A stretch of 64,000 nucleotides of DNA from Bacillota bacterium. Lineage in GTDB: Bacteria; Bacillota_E; JAJZYS01; JAJYTV01. This document shows positions 49,556-55,701 of the stretch, piece after piece (position 1 is the first letter of the stretch; each line of letters begins with the position of its first letter). Where the stretch lies: the NCBI GenBank assembly GCA_021845645.1, contig JAJZVM010000019.1, positions 1 to 64,000 of the forward strand, given 5' to 3'. Both the position numbers and the translations under genes were made by a program. The notes beneath the pieces were generated by a model. It searched no databases. It worked only from the letters and a program-made list of their open reading frames with translations, and was not told the DNA's origin.

Positions 49556-50743
49556 TCAGCGGTTGGACTGCAGGTGCACGCGGGCCTGGAGTTCGGGAAC
49601 CTTTGTCAGGCGCTCCCAGGGGAGATCAAGGTCGGGTCGCCCGAAGTGGCCGTACGCAGCCACCTGGCGATAGATCGGCCGTCTGAGGTCGAGGGCGCGG
49701 ATGATCGCGGCCGGCCTGAGGTCGAAGACGTCCTGGACGGCGGCCGCAATCTCCTGGTCGGCCAGGAGGCCGGTGCCGAAGGTGTCCACGCGCACGGCGA
49801 GCGGATGCGCGACTCCGATCGCGTAGCTCAGCTGGATTTCGCAGCGTCGCGCCAGTCCAGCCGCCACGACGTGCTTGGCCACCCACCTCGCGGCGTAACT
49901 CGCGGACCGGTCCACCTTGGACGGGTCCTTGCCGGAGAACGCACCGCCGCCATGACGGGCCATGCCACCGTAGGTGTCGACGATGATCTTGCGCCCGGTC
50001 AGGCCCGAGTCGGCCGCGGGACCGCCATAGACGAACCGGCCGCTCGGGTTCACGAGGTAGCGCGTCGCGCCATCGCGCAATGCGGCAGGGACGACCGCGT
50101 CGATCACCTCGAGGCGGATCGCGGCCTCCAGCGTCTCGTTCGAGACGTCGTCGGCATGCTGGCTCGATACGACGACCGTATCCACGTGGACCGGGCGATC
50201 GTCCTCGTAGCGGATGGTGACTTGCGTCTTGCCGTCCGGTCGCAGGAAGCCGAGCGCACCGCTCCTGCGCACTTCCGCGAGCCGGCGGGACAGGGCGTGC
50301 GCCAGGCTGATCGGAAGCGGCATCAGTTCCGGCGTCTCGTCACATGCATACCCGAACATCATGCCCTGATCGCCCGCGCCCTGGTCCTGCTCGGCGTTGC
50401 CGTCCCGCGTCTCGAGGGCCTTGTCGACTCCCTGTGCAATATCGGGGGACTGCTCGTCGATCGACGTCAGCACGGCACAGGTGTCCGCGTCGAAGCCGAA
50501 CTTCGCGCGCGTGTAGCCGATGTCGCGCACTGTGGAGCGGATGATGCTGGGCAGGTCGGCGTAGCAGGACGTCGTGATCTCGCCCGCGACGAGCACGAGG
50601 CCGGTGGTGACCAGCGTTTCGGCCGCGACCCGGGCGTCCGGGTCGTTGGCAAGGATCGCGTCGAGAATCGCGTCGGAGATTTGGTCGGCCACCTTGTCGG
50701 GGTGACCCTCGGTGACGGACTCCGACGTAAACAGGCTGTGCAA
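49556..50743 (-). CDS. metK: S-adenosylmethionine synthetase
   Basis: A 395-residue enzyme making SAM from methionine and ATP. It starts [20 protein letters not shown], has the ATP-binding [21 protein letters not shown], and the P-loop-like [23 protein letters not shown] motif, read here as [23 protein letters not shown] 50743 is fixed by GGAGGA just upstream. It is controlled by the SAM-I riboswitch directly before it, a classic feedback arrangement. Confidence 0.96.
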
Positions 50744-50765
50744 GCAGGATCCTCCTCTCCATCGG

Positions 50766-50898
50766 CACAAACAATAGCCGGACTGCGAGAGTCCGGCTGC
50801 GTTCTCTCATCCCTCAGCAGTGCTGCAGGGTTTGGCACCGTGGCAAACGCCCGGTTGCCGGGTTTCATCGGGCCAGCCCCTCCACCACTCGCGATGAG
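50766..50898 (-). ncRNA. SAM-I (S-box) riboswitch with terminator, controls metK
   Basis: The minus strand from 50898 reads CTCATCGCGAGTGGTGGAGG, then GGCTGGCCCGATGAAACCCG and GGCAACC, then GGTGCCAAACCCTGC, closing with GGATGAGAG at 50804. These are the conserved S-box blocks. A terminator stem (AGCCGGACT, 5-nt loop, AGTCCGGCT, 50797-50776) with a T-rich tail follows. SAM binding should switch metK off. Confidence 0.95.
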
Positions 50899-50923
50899 CA
50901 TATTCGATTTTTTGGCGAGGATC

Positions 50924-51484: not shown

Positions 51485-52489
51485 TCAGATCACGCGCTTG
51501 AACACGACGATGTGGCGTCCAACCAACTCGAGCTCCAATGCGCGGGCAGTGCCGAGCGCCACCGACGTCATCGGGTCGTCGGCGCGCTGGGCCGGCAGCC
51601 CCGTCTCGCGCGAGATGAGTTCCGGCATGCCGTGCAGGAGCGAACCACCTCCGGTCAGCCAGACGCCGCGGTCGAGGATGTCGGCGAGAAGTTCAGGAGG
51701 GGTGTCCTCCAGCACCCGCCGCACGGAGTCGACGATCTGGTGGGCCGGTTCCATCAGGATGGGCCGCACGTCGGCGGACGTCAGGCTGAGCGTGCGCGGC
51801 ATGCCGGTGAGGAGGTCCCGTCCGCGGATGTCGATCGTCGCGGCCCGTCCGTCCGGGTGCACGGACCCCACCTGGATCTTGACCTCCTCCGCCGTGCGCT
51901 CGCCGATCGCGAGACTGTAGGCCGAGCGCAGTTCGTGTGCGATCGCGGCGTCCATCGCGTCTCCGCCCACGCGCACCGAGTCGCTCGCAGCCATTCCGCC
52001 GAGTGTCAGCACCGCGACGTCCGTCGTGCCTCCGCCGATGTCGACCACCATGTGCCCGTTGGCCTTCGTGATGTCCAGGCCGACACCGAGTGCCGCCGCC
52101 AACGGCTCCTCGATCAGCTCGACCTTGCCGGCGCCGGCACTCTGCGCCGCCTCGCGCACCGCGCGCCGCTCCGCGCCCGTGGCGCCCGTCGGGATGCAGA
52201 CCATGACGCGCGGCCGCGTCATGCTCCTGCCGGGTGTCACGCGCGCGATGAAGTAGCGCAGCATGGCTTCGGTGATATCGTAGTCGGCGATCACGCCATC
52301 GCGCAGGGGTCTTGACGCGACGATCGAGCCAGGCGTCCTGCCGAGCATCTGGCGGGCCTTGTCGCCGATCGCCACGAGCCGCCCCGAGTCCCTCTCCACA
52401 GCCACGACAGAAGGCTCGCGCAGGACGATGCCCTTGCCGCGCACAGCCACAAGGACGTTGGCCGTCCCCAGATCGACCGCGATTTCCAT
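51485..52489 (-). CDS. mbl: MreB-family actin homologue (Mbl position)
   Basis: A 334-residue bacterial actin that guides side-wall synthesis. Phosphate 1 motif DLGTANVLVAV, connect and phosphate 2 regions with GGGTTDVAVL, and adenosine motif GVWLTGGGSLLHGM are all present. ATG 52489 has GGAGG 8 nt upstream. In Bacillus mbl directly follows spoIIID, and the same order is seen here, so Mbl is the likely orthologue; by sequence alone it could be MreB or MreBH. Whether it needs read-through from the interrupted spoIIID promoter is an open question. Confidence 0.9.
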   Translation of the reverse strand: MEIAVDLGTANVLVAVRGKGIVLREPSVVAVERDSGRLVAIGDKARQMLGRTPGSIVASRPLRDGVIADYDITEAMLRYFIARVTPGRSMTRPRVMVCIPTGATGAERRAVREAAQSAGAGKVELIEEPLAAALGVGLDITKANGHMVVDIGGGTTDVAVLTLGGMAASDSVRVGGDAMDAAIAHELRSAYSLAIGERTAEEVKIQVGSVHPDGRAATIDIRGRDLLTGMPRTLSLTSADVRPILMEPAHQIVDSVRRVLEDTPPELLADILDRGVWLTGGGSLLHGMPELISRETGLPAQRADDPMTSVALGTARALELELVGRHIVVFKRVI

Positions 52490-52579
52490 GCAGGCGTCCT
52501 CCAACCATGCCGTCCGAGATTCAATGGCAATTCGTGCGGCAAGCTCGAAGGTCCTGCACTACCCCCAAGGGTTCAGACA

Positions 52580-52807
52580 TTAGAGCGTGCGTTCGAGGAA
52601 CTTGCGGCGCGTCGCCTCGCCACCGCGGATGTGACGCTCGGCCTTGTTGTGCTCGAGCACGGTCTTCACCTGCCGCGCGAGCTGCGGGTTGATGCGCGGC
52701 AGGCGCTCCGTGACATCCTTGTGGACCGTACTCTTGGAGACTCCGAACCGATGCGCGGTATCCCGTACCGTGTCCTGCGTCGCGAGGATGTAGTCCGCGA
52801 CCTCCAC
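52580..52807 (-). CDS. spoIIID: spoIIID, 3' segment of an interrupted gene
   Basis: The segment encodes 75 residues of the mother-cell regulator SpoIIID: VADYILATQDTVRDTAHRFG, then the helix-turn-helix GVSKSTVHKDVTERLPRINP and the basic tail NKAERHIRGGEATRRK. The first 11 codons are missing here and found 2065 bp away at 54899-54868. An in-frame GTG at 52807 could start a shortened protein but has no ribosome-binding site. The spliced gene would be 54899..54868 joined to 52802..52580, 84 residues, close to the usual family length. It is followed by mbl, as in Bacillus. Confidence 0.93.
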   Translation of the reverse strand: MEVADYILATQDTVRDTAHRFGVSKSTVHKDVTERLPRINPQLARQVKTVLEHNKAERHIRGGEATRRKFLERTL

Positions 52808-52830
52808 CGCACACTTACTTGCCAGACGCG
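52790..52830 (-). other. recombination junction on the recombinase side (att site)
   Basis: The element arm GTAAGTGTGCGGTG is followed by the GA core (52804-52803) and then native spoIIID codons. The recombinase stop codon TAA (52817-52815) lies inside the arm, 10 bp from the core. The boundary is inferred from the frame and symmetry, not from an observed excision product. Confidence 0.75.
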
Positions 52831-54176
52831 CCGGCGCAGCCCGACGCCGGCGTTTCGAGGCGGATCTCCACCGTTGCGGGGCCAAGCACGACCGTGACGC
52901 CAAGGCCGCGGAGGACCTCGCGTCGCCCACGGGGACCCGCCTGGCGCAGGTACTCTCGCGCGGCTGCGCCGTCTTCACGGCACGCGTGGCGGGAGGGCTC
53001 GAGATCGAGCGCCGCCAGCCTGCCGCCGAGCTGGTCGAGGGCCAGGGCGAGATCCTCCGGCGACAGGCGGCCTGCGGCTCCCGCCTGCACGAGCCGCCGA
53101 CGTCGCGCTTCAAGCCGCCGCCGGTCCCTTGCGATGGCACCTTCCGACCAAGCCTCCACCTCCGGTGCATCATGCCTGGCCGCAACTTCGAGCGCCGCCA
53201 CCACGCGGGCCCAGACGGCCGCTTCCAGAGCCTCCGCCGGATAGTACGGCGCGGGACACGGCGGCCTCCCCCGCTTGCCCGCGCACGCGTAATAGGGGCG
53301 GCTGCCTCCGCTGCCGGTCACCCTGCGTCCGCAGAGGGCGCAGCGCGCCACGCCGCTCAGGAGGTACGTGCGCCCATGGCCCTCGGGGCGCCTGCGCCGC
53401 GCCGTGAGCGCTGCGCCCGCAGTGGCGAACGTCTCATGGCCCACGAGAGGAGGCATGGCGATGCTGCCCTGTCCGCGCAGTTGCGCCATCTCGCCAAGGT
53501 ACGTGGGGTTGCGCAGGATGCCATAGACCGCAGACTGCGAAAACGCTCCGCCGCCCTTGGCATGCAGGCCCGCGGCGTTGAGCGCGTCGGCGATGGCCTG
53601 CGTCGACATCCGAGGTGCCATCGCGAAGATCGCCCGCACGATGGCCGCCTCGGCCACGTCCACCAGGAATCCCTTGCGCCGACGGTCGTACACGTAGCCG
53701 AGGATCTGTGTCCCCGTCACCGCCTTGCCTTCGCGCAGGCGCTGCTGCTTGCCCTGGCGCGTCCGCTCGCGGATCTTGTGTGCCTCGAACTCCGCAATCG
53801 CGCCGCGGATGGCGTAGAGCAGCCTGCCGTCGGGCGTGGGTCGGCGTTCGAACTGTACAAAATGCAATTCGACGCCGATGCCTTCGAGCTGGTCCGTGAT
53901 GATGAGCTGGTGGCTGAGGTTGCGCGCCAGGCGGTCAGGATCGAGGCAGGCGACACCTGCGATCTCGTGTGCACTGGCCGCGGCGAGCAGGGCCTGCAGA
54001 CCCGGCCGCGAGATGTCGGTTCCCGAGATCCCCGCGTCGACGAAAGCGCGGATCTCCGTCGCGCCAAGCTTCTCGGCAAGCCTGCGGCACATCTCGGCCT
54101 GTCCTTCAAGCGAGGTGCCATGCTGGGCCTGCTCCTCCGTCGACACCCGCGCATAGATCGCGAAACAGCGGCTCAT
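52815..54176 (-). CDS. large serine recombinase of the spoIIID element (SpoIVCA/SprA-like)
   Basis: A 453-residue site-specific recombinase. The catalytic domain (about 1-150) has the nucleophile Ser12 in YARVSTEEQ and the DPDRLARNL active-site helix. The recombinase domain (about 165-270) includes GYVYDRRRKGFLVD and SAVYGILRNPTYLGE. The zinc ribbon has CALC and later CAGKRGRPPC. A charged coiled coil follows. The family includes SpoIVCA, which excises skin from sigK, and SprA, which acts on spsM. ATG 54176 overlaps the stop of the tiny ORF (ATGA). Its 3' end reaches the spoIIID junction, and excision of the element is its expected job. Confidence 0.92.
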   Translation of the reverse strand: MSRCFAIYARVSTEEQAQHGTSLEGQAEMCRRLAEKLGATEIRAFVDAGISGTDISRPGLQALLAAASAHEIAGVACLDPDRLARNLSHQLIITDQLEGIGVELHFVQFERRPTPDGRLLYAIRGAIAEFEAHKIRERTRQGKQQRLREGKAVTGTQILGYVYDRRRKGFLVDVAEAAIVRAIFAMAPRMSTQAIADALNAAGLHAKGGGAFSQSAVYGILRNPTYLGEMAQLRGQGSIAMPPLVGHETFATAGAALTARRRRPEGHGRTYLLSGVARCALCGRRVTGSGGSRPYYACAGKRGRPPCPAPYYPAEALEAAVWARVVAALEVAARHDAPEVEAWSEGAIARDRRRLEARRRRLVQAGAAGRLSPEDLALALDQLGGRLAALDLEPSRHACREDGAAAREYLRQAGPRGRREVLRGLGVTVVLGPATVEIRLETPASGCAGASGK

Positions 54177-54265
54177 CTGAGCTTCCCCTGGCGGCGCAGC
54201 TGCTCCAGCAGCGTTTGCCATGCCTGCTGCCATTCACGCTCGGACACATCCACCCGGATCTCCAT
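54173..54265 (-). CDS. 30-residue peptide coupled to the recombinase, candidate directionality factor
   Basis: ATG 54265 is preceded by AGGAGGG at ideal spacing. The peptide MEIRVDVSEREWQQAWQTLL plus ten more residues (EQLRRQGKLR) is predicted helical and basic at its end. Its stop overlaps the recombinase start (ATGA), so the two are cotranslated. Serine recombinases need a small partner (RDF; SprB in Bacillus) to drive excision, so this is a candidate, although it is shorter than SprB and shows no family match I recognise. It could also be only a leader peptide that boosts recombinase translation. Confidence 0.55.
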   Translation of the reverse strand: MEIRVDVSEREWQQAWQTLLEQLRRQGKLR

Positions 54266-54295
54266 CTGGATCCCTCCTATCCAGTGGACCGGGAC

Positions 54296-54303
54296 AGTCT
54301 ATG
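54296..54303 (-). promoter_or_regulatory. possible mother-cell sigma (SigE/SigK-like) -10 for the recombinase operon
   Basis: CATAGACT on the minus strand (54303-54296) fits CATAnnnT, the -10 of SigE/SigK-type promoters, 30 nt before the tiny ORF start. No convincing -35 was seen, so this is weak. Confidence 0.3.
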
Positions 54304-54867
54304 TGGACGTGCCCTCATCCTTGCGTTGGGCGACGCGGTACCATCGGCCCCGCGTCGACGGGACCATTCGGCACTATCGAGCCGAGCAGCCCGTTGCGCA
54401 TCATGAACATAGGCCGCGGACCATCCCCACGCGTTGAGGATGGCGTTTATCGGGAGGCGTCCCGTTGGCCTGCGCCGATCGTCTGCACCGTTGTCGTCTG
54501 ACATCTCCTGTCCGACGACGGGCGCGGACCCGGACACTCGGTCGCAGGCATCGGTAGACGCACCGCGCACCTCGGGCGCATACGACCGCGGCATCATCGC
54601 ATCGAGGGCGTCGGGCTCACGCGCGGCTTCAGCGCACGCACCGCTCAGCCAAAGCTCCCCCTGGCGAACGGCACACGGCGAGATCAGCCGTCAAGATGAC
54701 ACCGATTGCGCGGCCGCCGGCCACTTGCCGGCGCTCCCCCGAATGCGGCGCGGGCACGCAGTTGCCCGCCGTGAAGACAGCACCCGAAACATCTGTGTTC
54801 GGGTGCTGTTTGGTCGCTGCCATTGGATAGCTTTCACGCGGCTTGCCTTGCAGGTAAGCGGGCGTCG
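54304..54867. other. 564-bp non-coding part of the element
   Basis: One minus-strand open frame (54277-54597, or from an internal ATG about 75 codons) has no properly spaced ribosome-binding site and an Arg-rich composition, so I do not call it. A hairpin at 54777-54809 is listed separately. Nothing else is recognised. Confidence 0.4.
54777..54809 (+). terminator. hairpin inside the element near its spoIIQ-side end
   Basis: ACAGCACCCGAA and its exact complement flank a 9-nt loop; on the plus strand TTTGGT follows. It would also act on transcripts that enter the element from spoIIQ/spoIIID on the minus strand, though the tail there (CTTCAC) is weaker. Confidence 0.65.
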
Positions 54868-54899
54868 TCGAGCGCCCGCTTCCAGATGTGGTCCTTCAC
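54868..54899 (-). CDS. spoIIID: spoIIID, 5' segment of the interrupted gene
   Basis: GTG 54899 has AGGAAGGGG 9 nt upstream and encodes MKDHIWKRAL plus two bases of codon 11, aligning residue for residue with the start of SpoIIID proteins (Bacillus begins MHDYIKERTIKIGKYI). The reading frame then runs into element sequence and stops after a further few codons (the native part plus DDARLPARQAA). The segment lies 46 bp after the spoIIQ-like stop, the expected place for spoIIID. The core GA is at 54869-54868, and perfect 9-bp arms AAGCGGGCG/CGCCCGCTT surround it. Confidence 0.85.
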
Positions 54900-54945
54900 C
54901 GCATCCGGCCCCTTCCTCGGCAACATTCGCGCCATACTTATGCGG

Positions 54946-55701
54946 TCAGCCCTGCCGCGATGCGCCTGCCGTGGTCTTCGGCAGCATGGTGGCAGGATTT
55001 ACGGGCTGTCCCGCGCGCTTGATGGAGAAGCCCAGGCGCCCGATGCTGCCGCCGCCCGCTGCCTGAAGGGAACCGATCGTCTCTCCCTGTCCGACCGGGC
55101 TCCCGACCGCGATCTGCGTCGAAGCGAGGCCTGTGTAGGTCGCGATCACGTTCTGCGGTGAACGCACAACCACCGTGAAGCCGCCCGAGGCTTCCCGCTC
55201 CACGGCCTCTACGCTGCCCGGCAGGGCTGCGCGCACCGCCGAGCCGGACTTTGCCTCGATCTCCCAGCCCGTGTGATAGAACCAGTAGCCTCCGGTGGGG
55301 TCGAAGACCCAGCCGTACCCCATGGCGACGCGTCCATGCAGCGGCCAGACCGCGGTGGCCGGCAGGGTGGTGGCCAGCGCCGGAGTGGCTGGCGCGCCCG
55401 CGGAGGTTCGGGGGGCAGGTGGCGCAGCATGCGTCTGAGCCGCCTGGTTCGCGAGGGCCTGCGCGACAGCCGACTTCCGGACGTTGGACAACATGCGCGC
55501 CTGCTCAAGCTGACCCGACGGGCTGAGCGGCGGCGACACTGGTCCCGCCTGCCCGTTCGAAAGAACCGTGACGACCGCGATCAGCGCGACGAGGACCGCG
55601 GCGCTCCAGATCAGGGGCTCGCGGCGGACGGCGGCAACAGCTCTGCGCTGCAGCCGGCCGATGGCGCGATAAGCGTTGCGGAGACGATCGGTCAAGTCCA
55701 A
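54946..55701 (-). CDS. SpoIIQ-like degenerate M23 protein
   Basis: A 251-residue protein with one membrane helix (residues about 32-48), a linker of about 65 residues and a LytM-type domain. The zinc motif is degraded: HxxxD reads HTGWE (His143, Glu147), and the HxH strand reads RLGFSI without His, so it should not cleave peptidoglycan. Bacillus SpoIIQ, the forespore partner of SpoIIIAH, is likewise degenerate. Position next to spoIIID and mbl supports SpoIIQ. The start is unsure: TTG 55701 is the best in-frame choice. Confidence 0.8.
   Translation of the reverse strand: MDLTDRLRNAYRAIGRLQRRAVAAVRREPLIWSAAVLVALIAVVTVLSNGQAGPVSPPLSPSGQLEQARMLSNVRKSAVAQALANQAAQTHAAPPAPRTSAGAPATPALATTLPATAVWPLHGRVAMGYGWVFDPTGGYWFYHTGWEIEAKSGSAVRAALPGSVEAVEREASGGFTVVVRSPQNVIATYTGLASTQIAVGSPVGQGETIGSLQAAGGGSIGRLGFSIKRAGQPVNPATMLPKTTAGASRQG

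Follow-up and report, generated by a model that had tools for sequence, protein, structure and literature searches.

The sporulation regulator SpoIIID is encoded in two separate parts in the DNA analysed here, a stretch of 64,000 nucleotides from a Bacillota bacterium (contig JAJZVM010000019.1 of assembly GCA_021845645.1, positions 1 to 64,000) to which we refer as the window. Both parts are on the minus strand, flanked by a spoIIQ-like M23 peptidase gene and mbl, and spoIIID is interrupted after codon 10 by a 2,065-bp element (52805-54869) that encodes a recombinase. An initial annotation, made from the letters alone, had described spoIIID as split by a serine-recombinase element; we confirm the split and the distance of 2,065 bp from GA to GA. 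The features of the locus, all on the minus strand, are as follows; the related genomes are denoted G001 and so on.

54870..54899, minus strand: spoIIID 5' fragment, GTG start at 54899, encoding MKDHIWKRAL, recognised by its codon pattern
52580..52804, minus strand: spoIIID 3' fragment, EVADYIL... to the stop (Pfam PF12116, TIGR02844)
52805..54869, minus strand: intervening element, 2,065 bp, delimited by the GA-to-GA distance and by the same-codon cut of the spoIIID 3' part in 14 genomes
52815..54176, minus strand: large serine recombinase, 453 amino acids (Pfam domains; PHROGs integrase, E 4e-87)
54846..54891, minus strand: approximate left attachment site (attL), centre GA at 54868-54869, from half-site symmetry
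52781..52826, minus strand: approximate right attachment site (attR), centre GA at 52803-52804, from half-site symmetry
54909..54918, minus strand: ribosome-binding site GAGGAAGGGG, invariant in the window, G002, G004, G005 and G006
54934..54942, minus strand: CATAAGTAT, predicted sigma-E-type -10 of the spoIIID 5' fragment (CATAnnnW motif)
54296..54303, minus strand: CATAGACT, predicted mother-cell -10 of the recombinase operon (CATAnnnW motif)
54173..54265, minus strand: open reading frame (ORF) of 30 amino acids, a candidate recombination directionality factor, overlapping the start of the recombinase gene (pN/pS)
54310..54800, minus strand: leader, conserved, apparently non-coding and element-specific (nucleotide comparison with relatives)
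54946..55701, minus strand: spoIIQ-like M23 peptidase gene, upstream neighbour (Pfam Peptidase_M23, E 9e-15)
51485..52504, minus strand: mbl/mreB-type gene, downstream neighbour (Pfam MreB_Mbl, E 9e-132)

The codons of the 5' fragment are GTG AAG GAC CAC ATC TGG AAG CGG GCG CTC, and the earlier statement that a GTG with a ribosome-binding site encodes MKDHIWKRAL next to the spoIIQ-like gene holds at 54899-54870, with GAGGAAGGGG upstream. The 3' part opens with GAG GTC GCG GAC at 52804 and runs to a stop at 52580; its ORF matches the Pfam SpoIIID profile from position 6 (E 1.8e-36) and scores above the cut-off of TIGR02844. When the two parts are joined across the shared GA the sequence predicted at the join is CTCGAGGTC, and the joined protein aligns with B. 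subtilis SpoIIID (PDB 2L0K) over residues 1-80 without a gap (E 6e-26), which bears out the gapless product that had been proposed. Just before the 3' part, at 52807-52805, there is an in-frame GTG, which had likewise been named.

The same codon is split in related genomes

A scan of contigs with Mbl as the query returned six close relatives (Mbl 94-98% identical), and in all six a recombinase gene lies directly before the spoIIID 3' part. The family of G004 comprises 10 genomes; SpoIIID is matched in nine, all nine are split, and the tenth, G008, shows the 5' fragment alone. In the class as a whole, 154 genomes were searched, 128 gave a SpoIIID match and 14 are split at the same codon as the window (G001-G006, G009-G011, G081, G108, G109, G112 and G121). 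Genomes whose SpoIIID match starts at profile position 3 or later were taken as candidates for a split: two of them, G051 and G105, turned out to be intact, the weak matches of a third, G073, fell outside the inspected set, and the remaining SpoIIID-bearing genomes were classed by match start alone. Every one of the 14 split genomes has a related recombinase gene nearby, at a distance of about 10 bp to 1.7 kb from the 3' part; in G108 it is encoded on the opposite strand. No recombinase was found beside an intact spoIIID in 38 genomes, G051 and G105 included (41 loci, with 395-4127 bases upstream covered).

Where the gene is intact it reads through the site. This is seen in G102, a member of the same order (VKDHIWKRVIDIGDHIL), and in G061, which is listed next to the second group (VKDHIWKRVLEVSRYIS); the initial annotation had pointed to such a comparison, and intact G007, G061, G102 and the protein P0003 all match the joined arrangement. 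P0003 (MKDHIWKRAIEVADYIM), the closest intact form among the 23 proteins read, is 86% identical to the joined window protein, and at this identity it was counted as a relative and not as the excised form. No second SpoIIID match was present in any of the 14 split genomes, which may be incomplete, and a second, intact copy of the gene was accordingly rejected for these relatives, the window's own genome lying outside the search. Each of 17 genomes (G008, G102, G061 and the 14 with a split gene) gave matches to SpoIVA and to small acid-soluble spore proteins (SASP), so that these bacteria look like spore-formers.

The ends of the element resemble attachment sites

The element-internal halves of the two ends were joined around GA and scored as an inverted repeat over 22 positions. 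Among the 13 elements with both ends known, 10-15 of the 22 positions were symmetrical (mean 12.8), and the GA centre beat all eight slid centres in each of the 13 (best slid-centre mean 7.2). When compared with random pairs, 11 of the 13 elements fell individually below p 0.05. Swapping halves between clades reduced the mean from 12.8 for own pairs to 9.3 (permutation p 0.0005), showing that the two ends, which are 2-7 kb apart, have changed together between clades; swapping within a clade hardly lowered it (12.4). The same test detected no significant symmetry on the attB side, and gerE is likewise without significant attB-side symmetry, as stated in PMC5595907. By these measures the ends of the element resemble the attP of serine recombinases, with a GA core at which exact joining would restore the reading frame.

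The recurrence of the split at one codon in 14 other genomes, together with the symmetry peak at the GA centre, places the split beyond chance, and that recurrence also rules out an assembly error as its cause.

The start of spoIIID is retained

The 5' fragment was sought by codon pattern in 16 loci or genomes (the window, the 14 split genomes and G008) and was found in 14; the contigs of the other two, G001 and G003, end inside the element. In nine loci it shares a contig with the 3' part; in five it stands on another contig or alone. Because the fragment was found by its pattern, the conservation of its codons is partly due to selection in the search, a bias from which the flanking features are free. 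All 14 fragments have CATAnnnW 37-44 nucleotides before the start codon (0.30 expected by chance), and the motif also stands upstream of the recombinase operon in 12 of 13 elements (2.1 expected), with none in the scanned stretch of G081; the sequences are related, so these chance figures overstate independence. In the two clades nearest the window the operon motif is CATAGAYT at a nearly fixed place. A purine-rich run the same as or similar to GAGGAAGGGG can be seen by eye in the other nine 5' fragments. The block that contains the 5' fragment is 95-97% identical to the window in four close relatives, compared with 76-79% for the element and 70-74% for the spoIIQ-like gene.

Read against promoter consensus sequences, the motif suggests transcription by sigma-E of the 5' fragment as well as of the recombinase operon. 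The initial annotation had argued that the recombinase must be induced without SpoIIID, and a predicted mother-cell-type -10 before the operon would fit such an arrangement.

The retained fragment bears on a different reading of the locus, in which the element has permanently replaced the start of spoIIID, the 5' fragment is a relic, and a shortened SpoIIID is made from an RTG (ATG or GTG) at the junction, GTG 52807 in the window, perhaps by coupling to the recombinase stop. If the fragment were a relic, one would hardly expect a -10-like motif and a ribosome-binding site to persist in 14 of 14 cases, and no GGAGG-like run is visible by eye in the 16-nucleotide contexts before the RTG, whereas the 5' fragment has one. 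The shortened protein would also lose half of helix 1, which spans residues 2-19 in a model of the intact P0003 (mean predicted local distance difference test score 89.8). What speaks for a junction start is that 12 of 15 loci have RTG immediately ahead of the E codon, that the recombinase stop lies 7 nucleotides before this RTG in the window and G001-G006 (by eye), and that the 3' part is under strong purifying selection. Such a start does not work, however, in G009, which has ACG and none of ATG, GTG and TTG as far back as the in-frame stop, or in G010, which has GCG; G108 has CTG, a doubtful case since a GTG lies one codon further upstream. A functional start at GTG 52807 in related genomes had been named at the outset as the result that would speak against excision, and the codon proves not to be fully conserved there. 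The junction codons and the kept 5' fragment thus weaken a shortened SpoIIID as the sole form of the protein, and we consider this reading improbable.

Contents and descent of the element

The recombinase has the Pfam domains Resolvase, Recombinase and Zn_ribbon_recom, its relatives in the PDB include SPbeta YokA and TP901-1 integrase, and its gene is the single one of known family inside the 2,065-bp element. A PHROGs scan of the same-strand ORFs of 30, 106 and 64 amino acids found no phage genes besides the integrase, so that, judged on same-strand ORFs, the element holds none of the further phage genes that would make it a prophage. The 106-amino-acid ORF is without a Pfam match and sits in a stretch with single-base insertions and deletions between relatives. 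The 30-amino-acid ORF has no PHROGs match; its coding signal, from the window and five close relatives, is a pooled ratio of non-synonymous to synonymous changes (pN/pS) of 0.28, where the two alternative frames give 1.28 and 1.25, and this coding test covered the window's clade only. Small ORFs precede the recombinase gene in other clades too, with a likeness judged by eye and a weak signal in G+C-rich DNA.

The leader of about 490 bases is 83-86% identical in G002-G006, with single-base insertions and deletions, and 67-68% identical over part of its length in G010 and G011. It gave one match each in G004, G005 and G006, which rules it out as a dispersed repeat. It has long invariant runs and several predicted strong hairpins, and it may act as RNA. 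Its predicted fold has a z-score of -2.2, with double changes at 6 of 166 predicted pairs and an unfavourable RNAalifold covariation energy term. There was no Rfam match at gathering level, and a sub-threshold match to a selenocysteine insertion sequence (SECIS) on the other strand (E 0.39) was dismissed.

Two of the relatives have larger spoIIID elements, L113 in G112 (4,889 bp) and L136 in G081 (7,450 bp), that hold extra ORFs; one of those in L136 resembles the ATPase of an ATP-binding cassette transporter (by eye).

Purifying selection acts on the recombinase, the 30-amino-acid ORF and the spoIIID 3' part. The ratio of non-synonymous to synonymous substitution rates (omega) between the window and G002-G006 is 0.14-0.19 for the recombinase and 0.025-0.046 for the 3' part. 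Recombinase distances track mbl distances (Spearman 0.91, Mantel p 0.0003; window and seven genomes). As a separate observation, the loci L002 and L003 (G002 and G003) have identical mbl DNA, but 8% of residues differ between their recombinases, a hint of exchange or of mixed bins.

The 13 near-complete recombinases of spoIIID elements form one clade (100/100), separate from the sigK-linked recombinases. The tree included 27 of the 28 loci from the phylum and 12 of the 80 viral ones and left out the partial sequences of G001 and G009; its program flagged long branches and uneven composition, and its deeper joins have weak support. Another tree places 28 collection proteins of unknown neighbourhood within the spoIIID-recombinase group. 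A sample of 398 genomes from the phylum gave a recombinase match at 1e-80 in 34. There were 36 matches outside the class. Of these, 28 were examined as loci that included about 1.5 kb of flank either way; part of sigK was there in 18 of them, both sigK halves in six and spoIIID in none. Derivation straight from a local sigK recombinase is unsupported, the spoIIID recombinases being a separate clade, and a phage origin was rejected on a scan of viral contigs that yielded 25-39% identity in the 80 retained of 397.

In six loci from genomes across the phylum (L273, L275, L278, L279, L280 and L282) the recombinase lies between sigK halves that are 1.7-2.2 kb apart, so the minimal type of element is not confined to spoIIID. 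Closer to the window, sigK also seems to be split near residue 103-110, with a serine recombinase nearby, at L172-L177 and L179 (G102, G112, G061 and G081). The apparent halves are on different contigs in G102, G112 and G061, and G081 has the 3' half with a recombinase only; in G112 and G081 the apparent sigK split and the spoIIID split occur in the same genome. An intact sigK is accompanied by extra sigK 3' halves (from about residue 103), downstream or elsewhere, in G010 (L181, L182) and G006 (L183), and these extra halves resemble left-over attachment sites.

As for the surroundings of spoIIID in the window, the protein encoded at 54946..55701 matches the NCBIfam SpoIIQ model weakly (33 bits, cut-off 250), and a riboswitch for S-adenosylmethionine (SAM) at 50804-50900 lies ahead of an ORF at 49556-50770 that resembles metK (by eye).

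A predicted developmental switch

The DNA itself shows the split and the recombinase, a shared core of GA, half-sites in inverted repeat, a retained 5' fragment complete with ribosome-binding site and, in each split relative, a single SpoIIID match; from these we infer excision, its timing and its cell type. The initial annotation had proposed that excision during sporulation rebuilds spoIIID. The motif and ribosome-binding site of the 5' fragment in 14 loci and the intact relatives support that proposal at the level of sequence, and in our judgement an element that splits spoIIID after codon 10 is very probably excised in the mother cell, likely under sigma-E, to rebuild the gene.

Activation of sigma-E in the mother cell would lead to transcription of the recombinase operon and of the 5' fragment. 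The 30-residue peptide would set the direction of recombination, and the recombinase with this small partner would join attL to attR at GA, so that CTC-GA meets GGTC. The gene would then be whole, the recombinase gene would leave on a circle that is lost with the mother cell, and the chromosome of the forespore, and so the spore, would keep the split copy. The excision step would delay SpoIIID behind sigma-E and restrict it to the mother cell, because the recombinase gene is carried off on the circle and has to come on without SpoIIID. SpoIIID cannot act before the excision in its own gene, and the order of control would therefore be changed.

Several observations weigh against excision in the mother cell or qualify the evidence for it. 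Neither an excised junction nor a circle was seen, each split genome showing the split copy only; a near-identical full-length joined protein was absent among 120 listed matches, where clustering at 90% could hide one. The genomes of the relatives may be incomplete, and the single-copy count covers those relatives and not the genome of the window. The intact G102 and G061 fall among or near split lineages, so that loss or repeated gain must be assumed. The two ends are on different contigs in G009, G011, G109 and G121, the number of 5' fragments depends on the codon pattern, and the frequent RTG at the junction is what a shortened SpoIIID would predict. The symmetry of two elements, those of G002 (p 0.068) and G081 (p 0.058), is not individually significant. 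A directionality factor in the 30-amino-acid ORF is a guess from its position. Promoter scoring covered the -10 motif only; sigma-K promoters share CATA, and CATAnnnW fits sigma-K too.

The element might also rebuild spoIIID by excision without sporulation control, leaving and returning at a low rate in all cells as in phase variation. The skin recombinase of C. difficile is made constitutively (PMC5025042), and yin was present in excised form at every time point (PMC10747680), but mother-cell-type -10 motifs precede both the 5' fragment and the recombinase operon and no excised copy occurs among the split genomes; we give this reading very little credence. The least credible is an ordinary integrative element that broke spoIIID in lineages that have lost or are losing sporulation: a site-specific recombinase within a gene is the usual mark of such an element, and two relatives have larger ones (4,889 and 7,450 bp), but SpoIVA and SASP genes are present in 17 of 17 genomes, the 3' part has an omega of about 0.03 and the recombinase one of 0.14-0.19, and the 5' fragment is preserved.

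Sporulation-controlled excision would place the element among known ones. It is inserted inside the coding sequence of a sporulation gene and encodes a large serine recombinase, as do sporulation gene-intervening elements; its target is spoIIID and not sigK, and it is thus not a skin element. One of the nearest parallels is gin in gerE of Bacillus cereus ATCC10987 (PMC5595907), a non-phage element that also splits the gene of a small mother-cell transcription factor, has a serine recombinase (GirC) and an extra factor (GirX), and rebuilds the ORF by precise excision. However, gin is 28.6 kb long with three recombinase genes, whereas the spoIIID element has 2,065 bp, one recombinase and a family-wide distribution, and excision has been demonstrated for gin and is predicted here. 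The skin element of Bacillus subtilis, with SpoIVCA and the directionality factor Skr, likewise splits the gene of a mother-cell regulator, and it is under mother-cell control, as is predicted for the spoIIID element (PMC6957869, PMC5025042); the 3' end of skr (64 amino acids) overlaps spoIVCA (PMC6957869), much as the 30-amino-acid ORF overlaps the start of the recombinase gene. In contrast, a defective prophage in sigK makes up skin, and both sigma-E and SpoIIID control spoIVCA (PMC6957869, PMC5025042); with spoIIID itself as the target, SpoIIID cannot be needed for the first excision. In Clostridioides difficile a large serine recombinase and a mother-cell directionality factor time the rebuilding of a regulator gene, much as is predicted here, but that gene is sigK, the directionality factor is under sigma-E and SpoIIID, and the recombinase is constitutive (PMC5025042). 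SpoIIID acts ahead of skin excision in both C. difficile and B. subtilis (PMC5025042). Excisable elements also interrupt the sporulation genes yabG (yin, Clostridium botulinum), spsM (SPbeta) and spoVFB (vfbin); these are called prophage-like and have other targets, and yin is reported as unique to one strain (PMC10747680). The kind of element is thus known (skin, gin, yin), and its target gene, its size of about 2 kb and its conservation over a family appear to be new. In agreement with the initial annotation, which knew of no described spoIIID-interrupting element, none was found in the open-licence literature of PubMed Central.

A fuller picture, to which we would give a chance a little short of even, is that of a vertically inherited switch of about 2 kb, made up of attachment sites, a tiny directionality peptide, a recombinase and a leader that is maybe RNA, which ties the production of SpoIIID to the cutting of the chromosome. 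In relatives such as G112 and G081, where sigK too appears to be split, it would be the first of two serial rearrangements, in which sigma-E leads to the rebuilding of spoIIID and SpoIIID then helps to rebuild and switch on sigK.

As a unit of programmed rearrangement the element is very small. The split is kept at a single codon in 14 genomes in addition to the window, so the parts that the element needs and the gain to its host are directly testable. Related recombinases beside sigK in many relatives offer a natural series for the retargeting of a recombinase. In the mother-cell cascade SpoIIID follows immediately on sigma-E as the second tier, and in known systems it stands upstream of DNA excision (skin, sigK). 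If the prediction is true, a rearrangement upstream of SpoIIID would move an irreversible step that locks the cell type to an earlier point in development.

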